Assembly (NCBI RefSeq): GCF_001598915.1 | Contig: NZ_BDAP01000001.1 | Location: forward strand, 1,364,001 to 1,428,000 | Reading direction: 5' to 3' | Length of the DNA stretch: 64,000 nt | Source of the DNA: Williamsia muralis NBRC 105860 | GTDB lineage: Bacteria; Actinomycetota; Actinomycetes; Mycobacteriales; Mycobacteriaceae | Translations under genes and position numbers: made by a program | Shown here: piece by piece, positions 40,594 to 50,211 of the stretch | Numbering within the stretch: the stretch's first letter is position 1 | How the letters are laid out: each line of letters begins with the position of its first letter | The notes under the pieces: model-generated | The model's database searches: none | The model's input: only the letters and a program-made list of their open reading frames with translations | What the model was told of the DNA's origin: nothing

Positions 40594-42174
40594 TCAGCGC
40601 TTGCGTAGCCCCGCCGCCTTCACCATGTCGGGTACAGACGTGAACTTCACCCGTGGGCGGTTGAGCTCCTCGCCTCGCCGCCGTTCGGCGCGGTCGATGG
40701 CTCGCACGCCCCGGTAGCCGATCACCGGCGCCTTGCGTTGGCGCAGCAGTGCGTCGAAGTGCTTCTGGCCGTGCGATCGGCCGGACAGCTGGCCCTTTTC
40801 CGCGTCGATCAAGAATTCGTCCACCGTCGCTTCGGCGCACACCTTGTTGGCCCCGATGCCACCGGTCGGCCCGCGTTTTGCCCAGCCGAGCACATAGCTG
40901 CCCGGGATGACGTCGCCGTTCGTGTCGAGTAGGCGGCCATCAACATTGGGGAACACTCCGCGTTGCTGGTCGAACGGCAGGCCGGCGATCGGGGTGGAGC
41001 GGTAGCCGATGGATCGCACCACGAGGTCGGCAGCGATGACGTGGGAAGTGGCGCCGGTACGAACCCGGACGCCGCTCACCCAAGAATCGCCGAGAATCTC
41101 CTCGGGAGCCGAGTGAAAACGGAAAACGATGCGACGAGCGGTCGGGTCGGCCACCCCGCTGTCGTCGGAGATGACGCCGGGATCGTTCTCCACCACCACG
41201 TCGACACCCGGAATGGAGTTCAGCGCTCGGTATTCGGCCGCGGAGTAGGCAGCGCCGGCCTGGTCGCGGCGGCCGAGTAGCACAACCTCGCGCACATTCT
41301 GGCGCCGCAAGACCTCCAACGCCCGGTCGGCGATGTCGGTGGTCGCGAGAAGTTCGGGAGGCGATACGAGGATCCGGGCCACGTCCAGTGCCACGTTGCC
41401 TGTGCCGACAACCACAACGCGTCCGGTGTTGTTGTGGCGCAACACCTGAGCATCGGCGATTGCCGGTGCGGCGTTGTACCAGGCAACCAGATCGGTGGCC
41501 GAGGTGGAGCCGTCCAGGTCCTCACCTGGGATTCCGAGCTGCCTGGAGTCGCTGGCCCCCACCGCGTAGAAGACCGCGTCGAAATGGTCGGCCAGTTCGG
41601 CAGGTGAAATCTGGCCGGCCGCAGTGTCTTCGCCGACCTCCACGTTGGTGACCAGGGTGACCCGCGGGTCGCGGTACAGGATGTCGAATCCTCGCAGCAC
41701 CTTCTTGGTGCCGGGGTGATCAGGTGCCACGCCGGCGCGTACCAGCCCGCCGGGGGTGGGCAACTTGTCGATCACCGTGATGTCAGCGGTGGTGCGGTCC
41801 AGGAGGCTACGCAACGCGTAACCCCCGGAGGGGCCGGTTCCGACCACCGCAATACGTTGACCTGCAGGCAATTTCGGGATGACAGGGTAGGTGATCGGCG
41901 TCCACCCGGAGGTCACGTCGGTGTTGTCGCGGTAGTACGAGGCGTTGATGTCGATGAACACCTTGTCGCGGGTACCCAGCTTGTCGGCGGGGTAGATCGC
42001 GTCCACGGGGCAGGCGTCGGCGCAGGCGCCGCAGTCGATGCAGGCTTCTGGATCGATGTGCAGGATGTCGGAGCTGCCGAACCCGCGTTCCTCCGGTGTC
42101 GGGTGGATGCAGTTGACCGGGCACACGGACACGCATGCTGCGTCGCTGCAGCAGGTCTGGGTGATGACGAACAT
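40594..42174 (-). CDS. fprB: Ferredoxin--NADP reductase with N-terminal ferredoxin (FprB type)
   Basis: 526 aa. Residues 1-60 are a seven-iron or 2[4Fe-4S]-type ferredoxin: Cys9, 14, 18 and 22 in the first group, and Cys45, 48, 51, 55 (CIDCGACADAC) in the second. The rest is an adrenodoxin-reductase-like flavoprotein with VVGTGPSGGYAL (FAD) and VVGTGNVALDVARIL (NADPH). The layout equals mycobacterial FprB. The ATG overlaps the stop of the AurF-like gene by one base (TGATG), so the reductase is likely its electron source. It is followed by the convergent TetR gene. Confidence 0.88.
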   Translation of the reverse strand: MFVITQTCCSDAACVSVCPVNCIHPTPEERGFGSSDILHIDPEACIDCGACADACPVDAIYPADKLGTRDKVFIDINASYYRDNTDVTSGWTPITYPVIPKLPAGQRIAVVGTGPSGGYALRSLLDRTTADITVIDKLPTPGGLVRAGVAPDHPGTKKVLRGFDILYRDPRVTLVTNVEVGEDTAAGQISPAELADHFDAVFYAVGASDSRQLGIPGEDLDGSTSATDLVAWYNAAPAIADAQVLRHNNTGRVVVVGTGNVALDVARILVSPPELLATTDIADRALEVLRRQNVREVVLLGRRDQAGAAYSAAEYRALNSIPGVDVVVENDPGVISDDSGVADPTARRIVFRFHSAPEEILGDSWVSGVRVRTGATSHVIAADLVVRSIGYRSTPIAGLPFDQQRGVFPNVDGRLLDTNGDVIPGSYVLGWAKRGPTGGIGANKVCAEATVDEFLIDAEKGQLSGRSHGQKHFDALLRQRKAPVIGYRGVRAIDRAERRRGEELNRPRVKFTSVPDMVKAAGLRKR

Positions 42175-43114
42175 CAGAGCATGTGGACTTTGCGATAGAC
42201 GCGGGCAGCGGGTTTGGTGAGCAGACCCGCCTCGTCCAGGAAGCTCATCAGGTGTGCGCAGCTGCTTCGGACCATCGAGTGGAAATGTTCGTTGGATCGG
42301 CGGGTGGCAACAGCCCGCTTGGCGTCGAGGCCGGCGTCGGCGTACGCCCGCGGACGGATCATGCTCGTGAAGATGAACGCGGCAGCGATGGACACCACCA
42401 GTGCGCTCCACTGCCGGCGCAACCAGCCGACGCCCTTCATCGCATCCCGGACCTCTTCGCGCGCGAACTTCATGTGCCGCGACTCTTCGAGGACGTGGAT
42501 CTCGTTGACGGTGCGGATGAACGGAAGCACCTTCTCATCACGCATGCAGCCGCGCTGGAAGACGTCGAGGATCTCTTCTGCCACCAGGATTCCGGTGTAC
42601 GCGATTTCGGAACGCGCCGTGCGCATGAAGACCTTGCCCATCCATCCGACGAACTTGGAGGGGTGGTAGGACTTGCCGACCATCTTCTGCGAGGCCTTCG
42701 CGAACATGATCGAATGCCGGCATTCATCGGCAATCTCGGTGAGCGCGAACTGGAACTCCGGGTCGTGGTAGTCGCCCAGGTACTGATCCCGGATCACCAT
42801 CTCCTGCAGGATCTCTCGAACCAGATGCCGATGTTCATGATCGACGCGAACTCGTGGCGGGTCAGTGCCACGCGCTGCGGTTCGGTCAGCTCATCCCAGT
42901 AGTCGGTGCCGTACAGCGACGACCACTCGGGACTGCATCCGTATTTGTCCGGGTCCATCGGCTGGTCCCAATCGATCTCGGTCATCGCGTTGCGCGACAG
43001 TCGAGCCGCCGAGGCGAGCAGACGCTTGGACACCTCGTCGGTGCCCTGATCGTGCATGCTCACCACGTTGTCGTGGGTCGACTGGTGGTGCGCTTGCGCC
43101 GCGTTCACAGACAT
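42174..43114 (-). pseudogene. AurF-like diiron oxygenase (Rv0885-like), one-base frameshift
   Basis: The start at 43114 is behind GGAGG. The first about 99 codons read to MNIGIWFE, then the frame runs into a stop; the continuation EILQEMVIRDQYLGDY is in the next frame. The break is at 42811-42820 on the plus strand, consistent with loss of one base. Joined, the protein is about 313 aa and has the AurF-type diiron ligands: EFASIMNIG, ECRHS (ExxH) and VLEESRHMKFARE. The family oxidises aromatic amines or other substrates; the mycobacterial homologue Rv0885 sits next to fprB as here. Possible pseudogene or sequence error. Confidence 0.75.
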
Positions 43115-43213
43115 CGGAGAACCTCCACAAACTAAGACAACGGACATTGATACGACAATGTGCGTTGTCACGCTAACACGGAGGTGCGTGTCTGGAAAGG
43201 GTCGCGACCGAAA

Positions 43214-45925
43214 TCAGTGCGCGGCGACCACCCGCCGGACTGCGGCGCGCACGTCGGCATCGGTGTCGTCGGCAGCCGCGTCGAGCACCACTCGGACCTC
43301 GGGATCGTCGGACCAGTGGCTGAGTGTGAGGGCGGCGGCCTTTCTCACGTCGTTGTGGGGATCGGTGATCGCGGCCGACAACACTGCGATCGCCGCGGGC
43401 CCCGGCGCCGAGACGAGGCCTCGCGCCGCGCCGACCCGAACCTGCCAGGCGGAGTCCTTGAGCGCTTTGACCAGCAGTGGACCGTCCACGGGAGCTTCTC
43501 CCAGGCGAGCCATCGCTTCGAATGCGGCCGCTCGCACCAGCGGATCGATGTCCTGGGCGAGAACGCGGACCGCCTCGGCGCCCTTGGTCCCGACGGTCGC
43601 GAGCCCCGCGGCAACGGCGATGCGGACCTCTCGGTTGACGTCGCCGACAGACTCGGCGATCAGCGCAGATTCGTCCAGTGAGACCAGTCCGCGAACGGCC
43701 TCGATGCGCACGCGGTGATCGCTGTCGGCGAGCGCGGCGGCGAACGTCTCCGCGGGTGCCGCGCGCAGGGCGCGTAGGAGGTCGAGGACGGTGGCGCGCA
43801 CTGTGGCATCCACCGAGGTGAGCGTCGCGTGGAGGATCGTGATGAACTCATCGGTCGCGTCGAGCACTTCGACCAACTCTTGCAAACCCTGCGCGGCGAA
43901 GCGACGCACCTCGGGGGCCACGTCACTCAGCGCGTGTGCGATTGCGACATCAAAACCCTCCGGGGTGTTCTCGGTGAGGACCGAGATGGCGGTCTTCCGC
44001 ACGGTGGCGTCGTCGTCGGCGAGGTACGACTGGAAATCGTCGATACCGGCCGATCCCATCGCGAGCAGTTCGACGATCCGCGGCGAGGCCGCAGCGACCG
44101 ACTGGCGGTCTTCGACACGCGCGAGCTCACGGACCGGACTCTCCACGCCCGCATGGGCAGGCCCGGTGACCACCTCGGGCTGCTCGATGGCGATGACGGA
44201 ACGATCGGCGGGCGGGATGTGGTCGAGACCGTCGACCGGTACAAAGTAGGGCTCGACCGGCCGGCCCAGGAACTCCATGTCACCCGTGGCGTTCTTCCGG
44301 ACGTTGAGGTGGTAGCCCCACTTGTCATCCTGTCGCTCGGGGATGTCGGCCCGCTCGTGATAGAGACCCCACCGACTTTCGGTGCGTGTCAACGAACTCC
44401 GGGCCGCCAGCTCGGCGCAGTCGCGGATGAACGACACCTCGGCGCAACGCATCAGCTCATGCGGTGTGCGCCCGCCCATCTCGTCGATCTCACCGCGCAT
44501 CCGTTCGAATGACTCGATGGCGATGGCCAGTTTGTTCGCGGACTTCGGAGGTGCGACATAGTCGTTGACAAAGCGACGCAGCTTGTATTCCACCTGGGGC
44601 TGTGGGGGACCGTCGGGGTGCCTCAGCGGCCGGTAGATCAGGTCGTGCGCCTCGGCGAGCTGGTCGAGTGGCAATGCCGTCGGCATCGCGCGGTCCCGTG
44701 CGGTGTCGCTGGCGTGCTGGCCGGTGAGCTCGCCGTACACGAAGGCGCCGATCATGTAGTTGTGCGGTACGCATGCCAGATCGCCAGCCGCGTACAGCCC
44801 GTCGACGGTGGTGCGGCCGTTCTCGTCCACCCACACACCGGACGCGGAATGTCCGCTGCACAAACCGATCTCGGAGATGTGCATCTCGATGTCATGGGTC
44901 CGGTAGTCGTGACCGCGGTTGGCGTGGAACGTGCCACGGGTCGGCCGTTCGGTGGTGTGCAGGATCGATTCGAGTGCATCGAGTGTCTCGTCGGGCAGGT
45001 GGCTGACCTTGAGATAGATCGGCCCGCGGGCTGATTCGATCTCGGTCTTCACCTCCGCCATCATGTCGCCGGACCAGTAGTCGGAGTCGACGAATCGCTC
45101 ACCTTCGGCGTTCACCTGGTAGCCGCCGAACGGGTTGGCCACGTAGGCGCAGGCCGGGCCGTTGTAGTCCTTGATGAGTGGATTGATCTGGAAGCACTCG
45201 ATCCCGCTGAGTTCGGCGCCCGCGTGGTAGGCCATCGAGTACCCGTCGCCCGCGTTGGTCGGGTTCTCGTACGTGCCATAGAGATAGCCGGATGCCGGTA
45301 GCCCGAGTCGTCCGCACGGGCCGGTCGCCAGGATCACTGTCTTGGCGGCAATCTCCACGAATTCACCGGTGCGCGTGTGCAATGCAGCCGCGCCGACGGC
45401 CCGGCCGTTCTCGGTGAGCACGCGCACGGGCATCAGCCGGTTCTCGATGGTGATGTGCTCGCGCATGTCCTTTTTGCGCAGCACTCGGTAGAGGGCCTTC
45501 TTGACGTCCTTGCCCTCGGGCATGGGGAGAACGTACGAACCGGAGCGATGGACTCGGCGTACCGCGTACTCACCGTGTTCGTCCTTCTCGAATTTCACGC
45601 CGTACTTCTCGAGGCGCCCGATCATCGCGAAGCCACGAGTCGCCGTCTGATACACGGTCTTCTGGTTGACGATGCCGTCGTTGGCCCTGGTGATCTCGGC
45701 GACGTATGCCTCCGGCGTTGCCTTGCCGGGGATGACGGCGTTGTTCACGCCATCCATACCCATGGCAAGCGCACCCGAGTGCCGCACGTGCGCCTTGTCC
45801 AGCAGCAACACCGACGCGCCGTTCTCCGCGGCGGTCAGGGCAGCCATCGTCCCGGCGGTACCGCCGCCGATCACCAAGACGTCGCATTCCCGGCGATCGC
45901 GGTCAGCTATGTTCGGGATGTCCAT
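43214..45925 (-). CDS. AprA/FrdA-like flavoprotein fused to C-terminal HEAT repeats
   Basis: 903 aa. Residues 1-~610 are an FAD-binding oxidoreductase of the fumarate reductase/adenylylsulfate reductase alpha group: VIGGGTAG (17-25), RHSGALAMGMDGVNNAV (substrate/flavin loop, like AprA) and a C-terminal capping region with TRTESRWGLYHERAD. Residues 614-903 are HEAT repeats with about eight helical pairs of the type DSDHRVRIEAVRGLVSL and DPLVRAAAFEAMARLGE. HEAT domains usually bind partners. The ATG (45925) follows GAGGG and is 9 bases from the ABC ATPase stop. It probably takes electrons to or from the operon's ferredoxin. The substrate is not known; sulfur compounds are a guess from AprA and transporter type. 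Confidence 0.8.
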   Translation of the reverse strand: MDIPNIADRDRRECDVLVIGGGTAGTMAALTAAENGASVLLLDKAHVRHSGALAMGMDGVNNAVIPGKATPEAYVAEITRANDGIVNQKTVYQTATRGFAMIGRLEKYGVKFEKDEHGEYAVRRVHRSGSYVLPMPEGKDVKKALYRVLRKKDMREHITIENRLMPVRVLTENGRAVGAAALHTRTGEFVEIAAKTVILATGPCGRLGLPASGYLYGTYENPTNAGDGYSMAYHAGAELSGIECFQINPLIKDYNGPACAYVANPFGGYQVNAEGERFVDSDYWSGDMMAEVKTEIESARGPIYLKVSHLPDETLDALESILHTTERPTRGTFHANRGHDYRTHDIEMHISEIGLCSGHSASGVWVDENGRTTVDGLYAAGDLACVPHNYMIGAFVYGELTGQHASDTARDRAMPTALPLDQLAEAHDLIYRPLRHPDGPPQPQVEYKLRRFVNDYVAPPKSANKLAIAIESFERMRGEIDEMGGRTPHELMRCAEVSFIRDCAELAARSSLTRTESRWGLYHERADIPERQDDKWGYHLNVRKNATGDMEFLGRPVEPYFVPVDGLDHIPPADRSVIAIEQPEVVTGPAHAGVESPVRELARVEDRQSVAAASPRIVELLAMGSAGIDDFQSYLADDDATVRKTAISVLTENTPEGFDVAIAHALSDVAPEVRRFAAQGLQELVEVLDATDEFITILHATLTSVDATVRATVLDLLRALRAAPAETFAAALADSDHRVRIEAVRGLVSLDESALIAESVGDVNREVRIAVAAGLATVGTKGAEAVRVLAQDIDPLVRAAAFEAMARLGEAPVDGPLLVKALKDSAWQVRVGAARGLVSAPGPAAIAVLSAAITDPHNDVRKAAALTLSHWSDDPEVRVVLDAAADDTDADVRAAVRRVVAAH

Positions 45926-45933
45926 GTGGTCCC

Positions 45934-46713
45934 TCAGTTCTCGAGTGCGGCGGTGATCCGCGCACGCAGTTGGGCGGTCGCCGTGGCATCCCGGTGGTTG
46001 GGGTCGCGCGGACGCGGCACGTCGACGATGTCGCGGACCGGGCGTCCGGCGCGCCCGAACACCACAACCCGGTCGCCGAGCAGCAGCGCCTCGTCCACGT
46101 CGTGGGTCACGAACACCACGGTCGCGGGATGCGATGCCAGCGTGTCGATCAGCAACGCCTGCATGGTCGACCGGGTCTGGGCGTCGAGCGCGCCGAACGG
46201 CTCGTCCATCAGCACCGCCCTCGGTGCACCGGCCAGTCCGCGGGCGAGTTGGACTCGCTGACGCATACCGCCCGAGAGCGACTTCGGGAGGTAGTCGGCG
46301 AAATCGGCCAGTCCGATCTCGTCCATCCACCGCTCGGCCTGAGCCTTGCGGTCCCGACGCGGTACCCCGCGGAGGGTGAGCGCGAGCATGATGTTGCCGC
46401 GCACGGTGCGCCACGGGTGCAGGGCGTCGTCCTGGAAGACCATGGCCCGATCACGAGAGGTCTTGCGTACGGGCTCCGCGTCGGCGAGCACTCGGCCACC
46501 CGATACGGGCAACAGCCCGGCAATCGCCCGCAGCACAGTGGATTTCCCGCATCCCGACGGCCCTGTGAGCACCAGGATCTCACCCGGTTCGATCGTCAGG
46601 TCGAGTCCGTTCACCACGGCGTCGCCGCCGTAGTCGAGTCGTACATCATCGAGTTCGAGACGAAGACCTGTTGTCGGGATCAGGGCGGTTGTGGAGTTGA
46701 TGGTGCTGGTCAT
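45934..46713 (-). CDS. ABC transporter ATPase (NitT/TauT type)
   Basis: 259 aa. All ATPase motifs are present: Walker A GPSGCGKST, Q-loop VFQDDALHPW, signature LSGGMRQRVQLARGLAG, Walker B VLMDEPFGALD and the switch His in VFVTHDVDEALLL. The NitT/TauT/SsuB subfamily imports nitrate, sulfonates, taurine, bicarbonate or pyrimidine precursors. The start is ATG 46713 behind CAGGAGA, overlapping the permease stop by four bases (ATGA). The same frame is open far upstream to 47913, but that reads through the permease and is not real. It sits in the six-gene operon with the flavoprotein. Confidence 0.9.
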   Translation of the reverse strand: MTSTINSTTALIPTTGLRLELDDVRLDYGGDAVVNGLDLTIEPGEILVLTGPSGCGKSTVLRAIAGLLPVSGGRVLADAEPVRKTSRDRAMVFQDDALHPWRTVRGNIMLALTLRGVPRRDRKAQAERWMDEIGLADFADYLPKSLSGGMRQRVQLARGLAGAPRAVLMDEPFGALDAQTRSTMQALLIDTLASHPATVVFVTHDVDEALLLGDRVVVFGRAGRPVRDIVDVPRPRDPNHRDATATAQLRARITAALEN

Positions 46714-47567
46714 CGGGTCTCCTGAGCTCGGGGAAGCCACCGGGTCAATCGGCGGCCGATCAACTCGATGCCGCCCGAGGTGAGGGCGCCGAGTATCCCG
46801 ATGGTGAGCATGCCGACGAACACCTGCGGGTAGTCCACCACCGTGTACGCCTGCCAGGTGCGGTAGCCCACGCCGAGCCGGCCGGAGATCATCTCGGCCG
46901 AGATGAGGCAGATCCACGCCACGCCGATGCCCACCGACAGTCCACTGAAGACGCCGGGGGCGATGCCGGGCAACACCACTCGCAGGATCACGTCGCGCTT
47001 GCGTCCGCCCATGGTGAGGACGGAATCTTCCCAGATGGTCGGCAGTGCACGCACCGCGTGCCGGGTGGCCACCGAGATCGGGAAGAACGCGGCGACGAAC
47101 GTGATGAACACCATGCCGGCTTCGTCGGTCGGCAGCACCAGGATCGCCACCGGCACCAGGGCGATGGCGGGGATGGGACGCAGGACCTCCGTGAGGGTGC
47201 CAACCGTGTTGGTGGCAATACGAGAGCGGCCCAACAGGATTCCGACCGGAACGCCGACTCCGACGGCGAGTGCGAAACCGGCCCCGATCCGGATCAGCGA
47301 CTGGCCTAGGTCGAGGTAGTACTCCTCGGTGCCCAGACTCGTCCAGAATGCTTGGGCGATGTCGGTGACCGATGGCACCGTGTCGAACCGGGCCCACAGC
47401 ACTACGTCGGCGGTGGTCAGGAACTGCCAGAGTCCTGCGGCGGCAACGAGGACCAGGATGCGAAGTGGCCAGACGGTCAGCCAGTGGCTGCTGCTCCGGG
47501 CAGACTTCGGTGCTGTCACTGAACGTGTCTGGATGTCCAGCGCCGGGGTGACGGTGGCGGTGGCCAT
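46710..47567 (-). CDS. ABC transporter permease (NitT/TauT type)
   Basis: 285 aa with six membrane segments. The cytoplasmic EAA-like loop reads DSVLTMGGRKRDVILRVVLPGIAPGVFSGL, cited here as its core GGRKRDVILRVVLPG, which contacts the ATPase. It closely matches TauC/SsuC-type permeases. The ATG at 47567 overlaps the stop of the substrate-binding gene by one base and its own stop overlaps the ATPase start, so the three transporter genes are coupled. Confidence 0.9.
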   Translation of the reverse strand: MATATVTPALDIQTRSVTAPKSARSSSHWLTVWPLRILVLVAAAGLWQFLTTADVVLWARFDTVPSVTDIAQAFWTSLGTEEYYLDLGQSLIRIGAGFALAVGVGVPVGILLGRSRIATNTVGTLTEVLRPIPAIALVPVAILVLPTDEAGMVFITFVAAFFPISVATRHAVRALPTIWEDSVLTMGGRKRDVILRVVLPGIAPGVFSGLSVGIGVAWICLISAEMISGRLGVGYRTWQAYTVVDYPQVFVGMLTIGILGALTSGGIELIGRRLTRWLPRAQETR

Positions 47568-49006
47568 CAGATGACCTCCGCGACAGCCTGATCGTACGAC
47601 GCCGGCACGGCCCCGGGATGGGTCTTGATGTACTCGTTGGCGCTGTCCTGGGTGGTGAACGGCACGAACTGTGTTCCGTCCCGCAGCCACACCGCCTTGT
47701 CGGCAAACCATCGGGTTCCGAGCAGCGGGTCCGAGATATACGCTGCACGAACAGATTCGCCTTGGGACTGGGCCTGCCGGATTGCTTTGAGCAGGCACGT
47801 CGGTCCGGCCGCCGGCTGCGTGTTGTCGCTGCCGTCGAGCCACAGTTCTGCTGCGTCGGCCGGGTCGACGTCGATGTTGCACACCGGGTCACGGCCACGG
47901 ATCTGCGACGCATTCTGGGTGGATGCCAGTGAGTCTGCGTAGTTCTGACCGGCCGCGGTGAATGCCTGTTCCAGGGGAGCGGTGTTCACAAACGTGTTGA
48001 GGTCGAGCTCGTGTTCGAAGCTGCCGATCGACTTGAGGTAGGGCTGATCGCCCCGAAGCGCCTCCACCAGTTGCGGTTTGACTGCAGGGTTGAAGTCGGT
48101 GCCGCCGGGGCCGTTGTAGAGGTAGACCACCTCGGCGGGCAGGCCGCTGTCCTTGGCGACCAGGTTCGCAGCGGCGAGCGGAGCGTCGATCAGGGACTTG
48201 GTGGAATCCAGTTGTGCCTGCAGGAAGGCGGCCACCACATCCGGGTGCTCGTCGGCGAACGCCGATCGGGCGACAACACCGTGCAGCGTGGGAACGCCGA
48301 GCTGGGCGCCGTCGTACAGGAGCCGCGCCTTGTCCTGGAACACCAGCAGACCCGGCCAGGCGACGAACTGAGCCAGCGCATCGACCTTGTTCGATTCGAG
48401 CGCAGACGCGCCGACCTGAGGCTGCTGATTCTGCACTTTGACGGCGTCGTTGGGGTTGATGCCGATGCGGTCGAGCGCCTGGACCAGTGTTCCGTGTCCA
48501 GCCGAACCGACGCTGGCCGAGACGCTCTTGCCGCGCAGATCAGCGATGGTCTTCGCATCTGAATCGGGTGACACCACAACCATGTTCAGTGAGCCCCTGG
48601 GGCTCGAACCGGTGACCGACAACATCTCGGTGCGTGTTGCGTCATTGGCGTTCGCCCGCGACCCGTTGATGAGCATCGGGTAGTCACCCATCGACCCGAT
48701 GTCGATCTTGCCTGCGATCATCCCGGTGGTGATCGGAGCACCGGTGTCGTAGTCCTGCCATTCGACGCTGTACTTCTGGCCGGTCCGCTCGGTCACCTCG
48801 TCTAAGCGCTTCTCGAAGTTCCCCTCGGCGCGAAGCAAGGTCCCGGCCGTCACGGTGTTGATGGTTTTGGACTGGTACCCGACGACCACGCGAATCGCAT
48901 CGCCGTCACCGGAACTGTCGAGTGAACAAGCTGCTGAAGTCAGCACGATCGCAGCGGCGGTGAACAGCGTGCCCAATCGGGCACGTCGAGACGCGGTTGA
49001 TCTCAT
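47567..49006 (-). CDS. ABC substrate-binding lipoprotein with C-terminal NosL/YHS-like domain
   Basis: 479 aa. The lipoprotein signal is RRARLGTLFTAAAIVLTSAAC with the lipid site near residue 27. The body (to about 370) is a NitT/TauT-type periplasmic-binding fold: VVGYQSKTINTVTAGTLLRAEG near the start, then GSMGDYPMLING and SVGSAGHGTLVQAL. Residues 372-479 are an added domain: RDPVCNIDVDPADAAELWLDG opens like YHS/NosL metal-binding domains, with Cys376 and Cys404 (GPTC), and ends in an FxTQDxANEYIKTHPGAVPASYDQA pattern close to the NosL tail. This extension is not in usual family members and may bind copper or another thiophilic ligand. Start set by AAGGAAA five bases upstream. Confidence 0.8.
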   Translation of the reverse strand: MRSTASRRARLGTLFTAAAIVLTSAACSLDSSGDGDAIRVVVGYQSKTINTVTAGTLLRAEGNFEKRLDEVTERTGQKYSVEWQDYDTGAPITTGMIAGKIDIGSMGDYPMLINGSRANANDATRTEMLSVTGSSPRGSLNMVVVSPDSDAKTIADLRGKSVSASVGSAGHGTLVQALDRIGINPNDAVKVQNQQPQVGASALESNKVDALAQFVAWPGLLVFQDKARLLYDGAQLGVPTLHGVVARSAFADEHPDVVAAFLQAQLDSTKSLIDAPLAAANLVAKDSGLPAEVVYLYNGPGGTDFNPAVKPQLVEALRGDQPYLKSIGSFEHELDLNTFVNTAPLEQAFTAAGQNYADSLASTQNASQIRGRDPVCNIDVDPADAAELWLDGSDNTQPAAGPTCLLKAIRQAQSQGESVRAAYISDPLLGTRWFADKAVWLRDGTQFVPFTTQDSANEYIKTHPGAVPASYDQAVAEVI

Positions 49007-49068
49007 CGAGGTTTCCTTGTGGTGCGAAAGGGTGGGGTGCGAGAGGTGTTGGGCTGGTGGGGAATGAG

Positions 49069-49296
49069 TCAGCGGAGCAGGTACGGCATGTTCACGGTGA
49101 CCGCTCCGGTGGGGCAGCGGACTGCGCACGGGCCGCAGTACCAGCATTCGTCGACGTGCATGAAGGCCTTACCGCTCTCGGGATTGATGGCCAGTGAATC
49201 GAGGGGACACACCTCGACGCAGAGCGTGCAGCCCGTGATGCACAGGGATTCGTCGATGGTGACCGGGACGTCGGCTCGGGCGTTGACTTGGCTCAC
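49069..49296 (-). CDS. Small 2[4Fe-4S]-type ferredoxin (AprB-like)
   Basis: 75 aa from GTG 49296 with AGGAGT eight bases upstream. The first cluster motif is CITGCTLCVEVCP (C-x3-C-x2-C-x3-CP, one residue longer in the first spacing than standard) and the second is CWYCGPCAVRCP. It resembles the ferredoxin-like N-terminal part of adenylylsulfate reductase beta. The operon order (regulator, ferredoxin, binding protein, permease, ATPase, flavoprotein) makes it the likely electron partner of the flavoprotein. Confidence 0.85.
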   Translation of the reverse strand: MSQVNARADVPVTIDESLCITGCTLCVEVCPLDSLAINPESGKAFMHVDECWYCGPCAVRCPTGAVTVNMPYLLR

Positions 49297-49301
49297 TGGT
49301 A

Positions 49302-50054
49302 CTACTCCTGTGTTCGGCGGGCTGTGCTGCGCAGACAGACTCGGTCGCTGCGCATTCGGATGTATTCGAGATCGACGGGTCGGTCTCCGGCTTGTAGGTG
49401 GGTGAGTCTTTCGAGCAGCAACATGGCTGCGCCCGAGGCGATCTCGAGGTGGGCCGCAGAGTGTGGGTCGGCGTTCACTGCTTCGACGGTCATCGTGGCG
49501 CGGCCCAGCCTTTCGCCCGCGATCTGCTCGAGCAGGGCGAAGACGTCGTTGTGTTCCAGATCGTGCTGGATCAGCGGGATGCCCAGGTCGGGAACGAGAT
49601 AGGTGACGTCGAGACTGATCGGTTCGTCATCGAGAAACCGCAGCCGTTCGATGTAGACGGCCTGCTCACCGTCGTCGAGTGCCAATTTGCGTGCCACGGC
49701 GCGGGGAGGGTCCACCAAGGTCGCCACCTTGACGGTGTTGCGGACCTCGCCGTGCATGAGGAACGTCTCCTTGAGTCCTTGCAGGGCGTCCAGACCGTGT
49801 TCGAGTTGTCGCGCCACCACATGGGTGCCGACACGAGGAGAGCGTTCGATGAGTCCTTCGTCGCGCAGGATGGTCAGGGCATCACGGATGGTGTTGCGAG
49901 ATACGCCGAAGTCGGCGATGAGGGTGGGTTCATCAAGCGATCCGGCGACGTCTCCGTCGTGGACCTGGCGCCGCAGAACATCGGCGACCATGCGCGCGTT
50001 GTCGGCACGTAATCGCGTGCCGCCAGGGGGCCTCATCTGCATGAATGGCACCAT
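49302..50054 (-). CDS. GntR-family regulator with UTRA domain
   Basis: About 250 aa. The N-terminal winged HTH has DNARMVADVLRRQVHDG and FGVSRNTIRDALTILRDEGLIERSPRVG; the C-terminal UTRA ligand domain ends with LERLTHLQAGDRPVDLEYIRMRSDRV. It should sense a small molecule and control this operon. Possible starts are ATG at 50054, 50042 or 50036; none has a good ribosome site, so a leaderless message is possible. A perfect palindrome lies five bases upstream of 50054. The stop is five bases from the ferredoxin start, so the regulator is the first gene of the operon. Confidence 0.85.
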   Translation of the reverse strand: MVPFMQMRPPGGTRLRADNARMVADVLRRQVHDGDVAGSLDEPTLIADFGVSRNTIRDALTILRDEGLIERSPRVGTHVVARQLEHGLDALQGLKETFLMHGEVRNTVKVATLVDPPRAVARKLALDDGEQAVYIERLRFLDDEPISLDVTYLVPDLGIPLIQHDLEHNDVFALLEQIAGERLGRATMTVEAVNADPHSAAHLEIASGAAMLLLERLTHLQAGDRPVDLEYIRMRSDRVCLRSTARRTQE

Positions 50055-50071: not shown

Positions 50072-50211
50072 GTCCGGCCTGGCCGAATGCGCCGCTGCGA
50101 GCGGCAGTTCGGAATGCGCCAGGTGCCGCCCGGTCGACTGCGCCGTGACCTGGGCTGCTGCGGCGCCGAGGGGCCAATTCGCCACCTGGGCGAGCCGGCG
50201 GGGGATTTAAA

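Follow-up and report, generated by a model that had tools for sequence, protein, structure and literature searches.

Why are a flavoprotein and a small ferredoxin kept in one gene set with an importer, and on which molecule do they act? This question is raised by six genes of Williamsia muralis NBRC 105860, all of them on the minus strand at positions 43214-50054 of the 64,000-nucleotide stretch of its genome that was analysed here (the window), which code for a GntR/UTRA regulator, a ferredoxin, a lipoprotein-type binding protein, the permease and the ATPase of a NitT/TauT importer, and a flavoprotein extended by HEAT repeats (Table 1). We propose that this module serves the dedicated uptake and reduction of a small sulfo-compound (an organic sulfonate, a sulfate ester or a sulfamate), and we give the whole chain of events a probability of about 0.5. 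According to this proposal, the lipoprotein and the importer would take up the anion, the flavin adenine dinucleotide (FAD) of the flavoprotein would be reduced in the cytoplasm by the small ferredoxin, and the reduced flavin would attack the sulfo group, as proposed for the reductases of adenosine 5'-phosphosulfate (APS) and 3'-phosphoadenosine 5'-phosphosulfate (PAPS), the sulfur departing as sulfite. The regulator would turn on this module alone, and the HEAT part could scaffold the flavoprotein, the ferredoxin or the delivery of a cluster. Import and ferredoxin-dependent redox of the imported molecule are very likely, a sulfo-compound as the cargo is moderately supported, and the release of sulfite by the reduced flavin is plausible.

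A gene set inherited as a unit

The best 80 of 587 confirmed stretches on genome contigs, which are closely related, were taken as actinobacterial loci, and all six genes were found in the same order and on the same strand in 74 of them, with extra sequence inside the set in two of the 74 (L035 and L039). Five of the remaining six loci end at a contig border; in L098, a short contig of a metagenome-assembled genome, the ferredoxin gene lies directly before the flavoprotein gene and the importer genes are not between them. When 396 genomes drawn from Actinomycetota were surveyed, the flavoprotein scored above the family cut-off in 12, the ferredoxin was present in the identical 12, and the binding protein was detected in these and three more, adjoining the flavoprotein in every one of the 12. 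Therefore, the set is patchy yet inherited as a unit. Within the genus of the window genome, two of nine genomes have a flavoprotein match above the cut-off, and the 5.5-Mb window genome itself encodes one full-length copy, its five other matches being distant (26-29% identity).

In a plasmid collection, 206 records matched the flavoprotein, many as distant paralogues alone. The best 40 of them were all among the 48 records matching the ferredoxin, and the flavoprotein was seen in all 46 of these 48 that were checked. Twenty-one loci from this collection were compared (one from an actinobacterium, four from cyanobacteria, the rest from proteobacteria). The ferredoxin gene stands beside that of the flavoprotein in all 21, HEAT has its own gene in 20 of them and is fused in the remaining one, and the importer triad lies near the flavoprotein in 19, being absent from L019 and L022; in L122 the binding protein is degraded. 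Hosts of the flavoprotein family include soil actinobacteria, rhizobia, burkholderias, Acinetobacter and cyanobacteria. The association of the six genes is not due to chance, and the set recurs across other genera and phyla. A first-pass annotation of the window had read the genes as an import-and-redox module and had staked this on the flavoprotein and the transporter occurring together in other genomes, which is borne out by co-inheritance in 12 of 12 genomes and by 19 of the 21 plasmid loci.

Some loci depart from the usual state of the genes. One in-frame stop was seen in the flavoprotein-HEAT match of L118, L119 and L120 (G190, G201 and G031), which come from a genus with four hits in all; HEAT is perhaps a separate gene there. 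Two Acidithiobacillus caldus plasmids (L141 and L142) carry remnants of the module: the binding protein is truncated, the flavoprotein is down to a fragment of 154 residues, and a GntR gene is present; in L141 the truncated binding protein adjoins a transposase. A scan of viral contigs matched 35 stretches, none of them a relative of the module, and clustering of the genes flanking the actinobacterial loci was dominated by antisense open reading frames and gave no usable clue.

The flavoprotein and its redox partner

The flavoprotein belongs to two curated families named 'fumarate reductase/succinate dehydrogenase flavoprotein subunit', NF010374 (PRK13800; 1618.2 bits over residues 1-901, cut-off 1196) and NF006131 (PRK08275; 856 bits, cut-off 587). 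Its fusion with HEAT repeats is already known as the defining architecture of NF010374; what the present analysis adds to both families are the partners of the protein and a hypothesis on its substrate class. Residues ~1-575 are AprA/PAPS-reductase-like and residues ~615-903 are HEAT repeats. The best match in the PDB is 8a8o_A, the alpha subunit of the PAPS reductase of Methanothermococcus thermolithotrophicus (MtPAPSR), with 3.8e-60 by single sequence, and the family profile ranks this chain (1.3e-82) before AprA of dissimilatory APS reductase (about 1e-58) and SdhA (7.2e-37). The ferredoxin matches the AprB chains 3gyx_B (2.6e-8) and 1jnr_B (6.3e-6) as well as the PAPS reductase beta subunit 8a8o_C (7.6e-8), and its eight cysteines are invariant in all 14 aligned sequences. 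An FAD subunit of the fumarate-reductase family with a dicluster ferredoxin is also the plan of MtPAPSR, as described in parts of PMC10322725. With AprBA, the module shares the fold families and the expected path of electrons from ferredoxin to FAD, and the ferredoxin is likely to be the electron donor to the flavoprotein. The ferredoxin had been annotated as AprB-like and the flavoprotein as an AprA relative; the resemblance stands, but the scores stay far below the curated cut-offs (125 bits against 641.75 for aprA and 28.9 bits against 135.65 for aprB), and the cut-offs of the sdhA and nadB models are likewise missed by the flavoprotein.

According to parts of PMC10322725, MtPAPSR has kept the catalytic residues of dissimilatory APS reductase, an attack of FAD N5 on the sulfur is proposed for it, and Lys120, Arg121 and Ser122 belong to its 3'-phosphate/nucleotide loop. 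In an alignment of 107 flavoproteins of the present family, mostly from Actinomycetota, identity reaches 98% or more at 218 positions ahead of residue 580, and His126, Cys244, Leu250, Cys259, Cys356, His359 and His388 are the same in all 107. His359 aligns with MtPAPSR His346, which is thus kept throughout. Leu250 occupies the position of MtPAPSR Arg237 and of AprA Arg265, a residue which we take to have a catalytic or binding role; Cys259 aligns with AprA Gly274, AprA Trp234 is changed to Tyr and AprA Leu278 to Ala, Thr or Gly. The loop that binds the nucleotide in APS and PAPS reductases, including the 3'-phosphate loop of MtPAPSR, is exchanged for a family-specific VH(R/H)xGxYVLPMP. The module further differs from MtPAPSR by its HEAT repeats, its dedicated importer and three family-specific invariant cysteines. 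Since the MtPAPSR site is kept only in part and the family has an invariant site of its own, the substrate should be other than APS or PAPS.

That the flavoprotein is a conventional assimilatory reductase of APS or PAPS lying by a transporter by accident is hardly credible: a PAPS reductase is its nearest solved structure, but the aprA and aprB cut-offs are missed, neither Arg265 nor the nucleotide loop is kept, and no adenosine triphosphate (ATP) sulfurylase or APS kinase was seen among the annotated neighbours of the loci inspected. A more serious competitor, which we still consider rather unlikely, is an enzyme acting on the carbon skeleton of the cargo, by C=C reduction or by C-N or C-C oxidation as in fumarate reductase and aspartate oxidase, with the sulfo group merely recognised by the importer. 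SdhA, FrdA and NadB belong to the same fold family and are all matched by the flavoprotein, whose QINP motif lies in the same alignment column as the similar QFHP of SdhA. However, the SdhA match is weaker than that of PAPS reductase, Asn248 lies opposite the histidine of QFHPT, and no arginine of the flavoprotein matches that of 'RDVVAR', these two residues of SdhA presumably being its catalytic ones. As judged from the alignment, the family name 'fumarate reductase' is not backed by the active-site residues of the flavoprotein.

The actinobacterial module has no NAD(P)H-ferredoxin reductase, so that its description as 'self-contained' is doubtful. Among the 21 plasmid-collection loci, FdxA was found in three and ferredoxin-NADP reductase in two, together with FdxA; FdxA and/or reductase genes thus lie inside the cluster in three. 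The pairing of FdxA with the reductase fits the reductive direction, in which electrons would flow from the ferredoxin to the imported molecule. The sulfate/sulfite couple is strongly negative, at about -0.5 V, which would make a low-potential donor sensible if an ordinary sulfate ester is reduced directly; this is an argument and not a result. If a C-S bond is cut instead, there is no activation problem, yet the chemistry would be new.

The importer and its sulfatase-paired relatives

Sulfonate binders are the closest relatives of the binding protein by sequence and by fold. Its match to SsuA_fam (TIGR01728), 137.4 bits, stays under the cut-off of 163.5, and in a phmmer search of the PDB TauA and SsuA ranked best, followed by a nitrate-named SsuA-like chain and SsuA. 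An AlphaFold2 model of the protein (mean predicted local distance difference test score, pLDDT, 86.4) retrieved TauA/SsuA chains at ranks 1-8 in Foldseek, with bicarbonate, nitrate and vitamin binders lower. The best NCBIfam match of the ATPase is the taurine ATPase, with 201 bits under a cut-off of 357. The module resembles SsuABC/TauABC in importer type and in the fold of the binding protein, but it has no SsuD/TauD oxygenase, the ferredoxin-flavoprotein pair standing instead, and the binding protein carries an extra domain after residue ~373.

This domain appears to be NosL-like, with detectable homology to PF05573. Pfam NosL was listed at E<=10 for 22 of 31 members of the binding-protein family, the best at 2.2e-8, and the window protein scored 15.1 (E 0.031), below the gathering score of 24; a profile of the domain matched NosL 7og7 in the PDB at 4.1e-5 and other NosL entries at 0.34-0.91. 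NosL is a copper protein, and a role of the module in the uptake or handling of a metal such as copper, with the redox pair reducing the metal or loading a cluster, might also be read from the three invariant cysteines of the flavoprotein and from the DUF971 and Mrp/NBP35 genes present in 12 and four, respectively, of the 21 plasmid-collection loci. This is very improbable, however, as the NosL-like domain has a pair of cysteines in 48 of 95 sequences and none in the other 47, which speaks against a conserved metal site, and the main lobe of the binding protein is TauA/SsuA-like.

A second type of operon, found in three actinobacterial genomes, contains the same importer family without the flavoprotein (identity to the window of 44-48% for the binding protein, 51-53% for the permease, 49-52% for the ATPase and 43-46% for the paralogous GntR/UTRA regulator). 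Its neighbours are a sulfatase with a CxPxR motif, a formylglycine-generating enzyme (FGE) and a SulP transporter. The same set is present on a Gordonia amicalis plasmid, where SulP was recovered as several tblastn pieces, and on a Paraburkholderia plasmid in the order GntR-importer-sulfatase-FGE-SulP. Sulfatase, FGE and SulP were therefore seen in five of five loci (L134, L135, L136, L139 and L140) from Actinomycetota and a betaproteobacterium; the sulfatases are 71-94% identical to that of L134 and, inspected by eye, have no evident signal peptide. In a control with 112 loci (L017-L128, eleven of them with 1.5-kb flanks only), none of the four genes for sulfatase, FGE, SulP and GyrB was detected at E<=1e-20. 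A second gyrB gene was observed in four of the five sulfatase-importer loci, and one idea is that it is linked to a desulfated gyrase inhibitor.

A FastTree phylogeny of the binding proteins groups those from the four actinobacterial sulfatase loci in a single clade and places the Paraburkholderia one with binding proteins of Variovorax and Methylobacterium whose partner is the flavoprotein (supports 0.889 and 0.982). This placement suggests that the enzyme partner changed while the importer stayed, probably more than once around one importer type. What a sulfatase and an APS-reductase-like enzyme have in common is the sulfo group, which is a hint at the cargo, and the shared importer offers a direct handle on the substrate. 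A cargo without sulfur, that is, another small anion or a heterocycle on which the redox pair acts, is unlikely. Folds of the NMT1 type include binders of nitrate, bicarbonate, thiamine precursors and pyrroloquinoline quinone, several NitT/TauT/NMT1 systems carry such cargo, and the best NCBIfam matches of the regulator are phosphonate and histidine regulators, far below the cut-off; against this stand the sulfonate binders as nearest neighbours in sequence and fold and the sulfatase-paired paralogues in two phyla.

Uptake and assimilation of organosulfonates have been predicted in parts of PMC12375680 (2025) for cargo operons of A. caldus plasmids, among them pTcM1 (our L122), and a legend there names a module of ferredoxin, APS reductase and GntR with a NirT/TauT transporter; the parts concerned do not mention HEAT, the NosL-like domain, the sulfatase-paired paralogues or the wider distribution. 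These paralogues, the NosL-like domain, TauA/SsuA as the closest folds and a promoter element that looks module-specific are newly noted here. A literature search, mainly of open-licence and few subscription journals, found no experimental study of the flavoprotein family. Neither 'flavoprotein' nor 'fumarate reductase' occurs in the main text of PMC8557817 on the Rhodococcus IGTS8 proteome, PMC3826726 has no passage bearing on the module, and PRK13800 turns up in part of a paper on arbuscular mycorrhizal fungi.

Several observations weigh against the reduction of an imported sulfo-compound. With leucine in place of Arg265/Arg237 and the APS/PAPS-binding loop replaced, the sulfo group would need another mode of binding, and the invariant Cys244, Cys259 and Cys356 have no explained role. 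An AlphaFold2 model of the flavoprotein was discarded for placing the active site (mean pLDDT 62.7, below 50 in the substrate region). As a sulfatase cannot break a C-S bond, the cargo of the two importer types may differ. The importer of L137 adjoins open reading frames that look, by eye, like an alpha-galactosidase and a galactokinase, and L138 has TauE alone, 1.4 kb off and on the opposite strand. TauE/SafE genes near four and YeiH genes near three of the 21 plasmid-collection flavoprotein loci speak for a sulfo-compound, but they are found mostly in three related cyanobacterial ones. The remnants on the two A. caldus plasmids L141 and L142 likewise fit the proposal less well. Finally, an organic source of sulfur would be of little use to A. 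caldus, which oxidises sulfur.

Taking these points into account, we advance only tentatively, as a somewhat doubtful step, that the flavoprotein is a new ferredoxin-dependent sulfo-group reductase which, once a sulfate ester, sulfamate or sulfonate has been taken up, converts its sulfur directly to sulfite without oxygen or ATP-dependent sulfate activation. If true, this enzyme would be a reductive equivalent of the sulfatase next to which the same importer stands in other bacteria, and would give aerobes an oxygen-independent route to sulfur from organic sulfo-compounds.

Regulator, gene layout and neighbouring genes

Upstream of the regulator gene, GGTGGCGCA was found in 44 of 76 related loci. 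In 32 of these 76 upstream regions, two copies of GGCGNAAT are spaced by 53 or 54 bases; in three, the distance is 63 or 64 bases, about one helical turn more. A genome-wide pattern search of 13 module-bearing genomes returned one site in each of five, always ~0.8 kb upstream of the module's ferredoxin gene; a reversed-pattern control gave zero sites. The strict pattern had no site in the other eight, including the window genome, whose degenerate copy fits neither strict pattern. We read the element as a module-specific operator, to which the GntR/UTRA regulator would bind. A riboswitch, an idea prompted by the conserved element, was discarded: Rfam gave none at the gathering score in seven loci and two chance-like matches alone in the window, and the constant spacing fits protein-binding DNA better. 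The type of regulator varies by lineage (GntR/UTRA, Crp/Fnr or LysR). In a locus of the cyanobacterium Leptolyngbya, the LysR protein (L018:6307-8343) has an added NMT1-like domain and matches module binding proteins by tblastn, and it may therefore sense the transported ligand.

The order, direction and domain content of the six genes agree with the first-pass annotation, as do the 5 bases between regulator and ferredoxin and the overlaps of binding protein and permease (1 base) and of permease and ATPase (4 bases). The gap between ATPase and flavoprotein, given there as 9 bases, was counted as 8, and the 62 bases between ferredoxin and binding protein had gone unmentioned. From this spacing and its conservation, the six genes are predicted to form one transcript.

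Table 1. Features of the module and its neighbours in the window (aa, amino acids)
Feature	Position	Strand	Basis
Promoter-region element, two divergent GGYGGCG-AAT-like copies	50113-50186	-	upstream of regulator gene; placed by eye
GntR-family regulator with UTRA ligand-sensing domain, 250 aa	49302-50054	-	PF07702 106.8 bits; PF00392 41.7 bits
Dicluster [4Fe-4S] ferredoxin, 75 aa, GTG start, eight cysteines	49069-49296	-	PF12838
Lipoprotein-type substrate-binding protein, 479 aa, TauA/SsuA-like fold	47567-49006	-	NMT1
NosL-like C-terminal domain of binding protein, residues ~373-479	47567-47890	-	PF05573; profile against PDB
NitT/TauT-type permease, 285 aa	46710-47567	-	PF00528 (BPD_transp_1) 64.5 bits
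Importer ATPase, 259 aa	45934-46713	-	PF00005 (ABC_tran) 110.6 bits
Flavoprotein-HEAT, 903 aa, ATG start	43214-45925	-	FAD_binding_2, Succ_DH_flav_C, HEAT (Pfam)
HEAT repeats of flavoprotein	43214-44083	-	
AurF-type N-oxygenase	42174-43171	-	PF11583
FdxA-oxidoreductase fusion, 605 aa	40594-42411	-	

Two genes downstream of the flavoprotein lies a protein whose FdxA-type ferredoxin part precedes a part resembling pyridine-nucleotide oxidoreductases. Together with the AurF-type gene it was considered as the electron supply of the module and rejected, the fusion being present in just two (L059 and L117) of the 112 loci, with an FdxA-only match in L126; AurF itself was found in none of the 112. 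Both were left outside the module. The AurF gene is split over two overlapping open frames, one covering profile positions 2-84 and the other 89-282, and appears to be interrupted by a frameshift near 42800, unless the sequence is in error.

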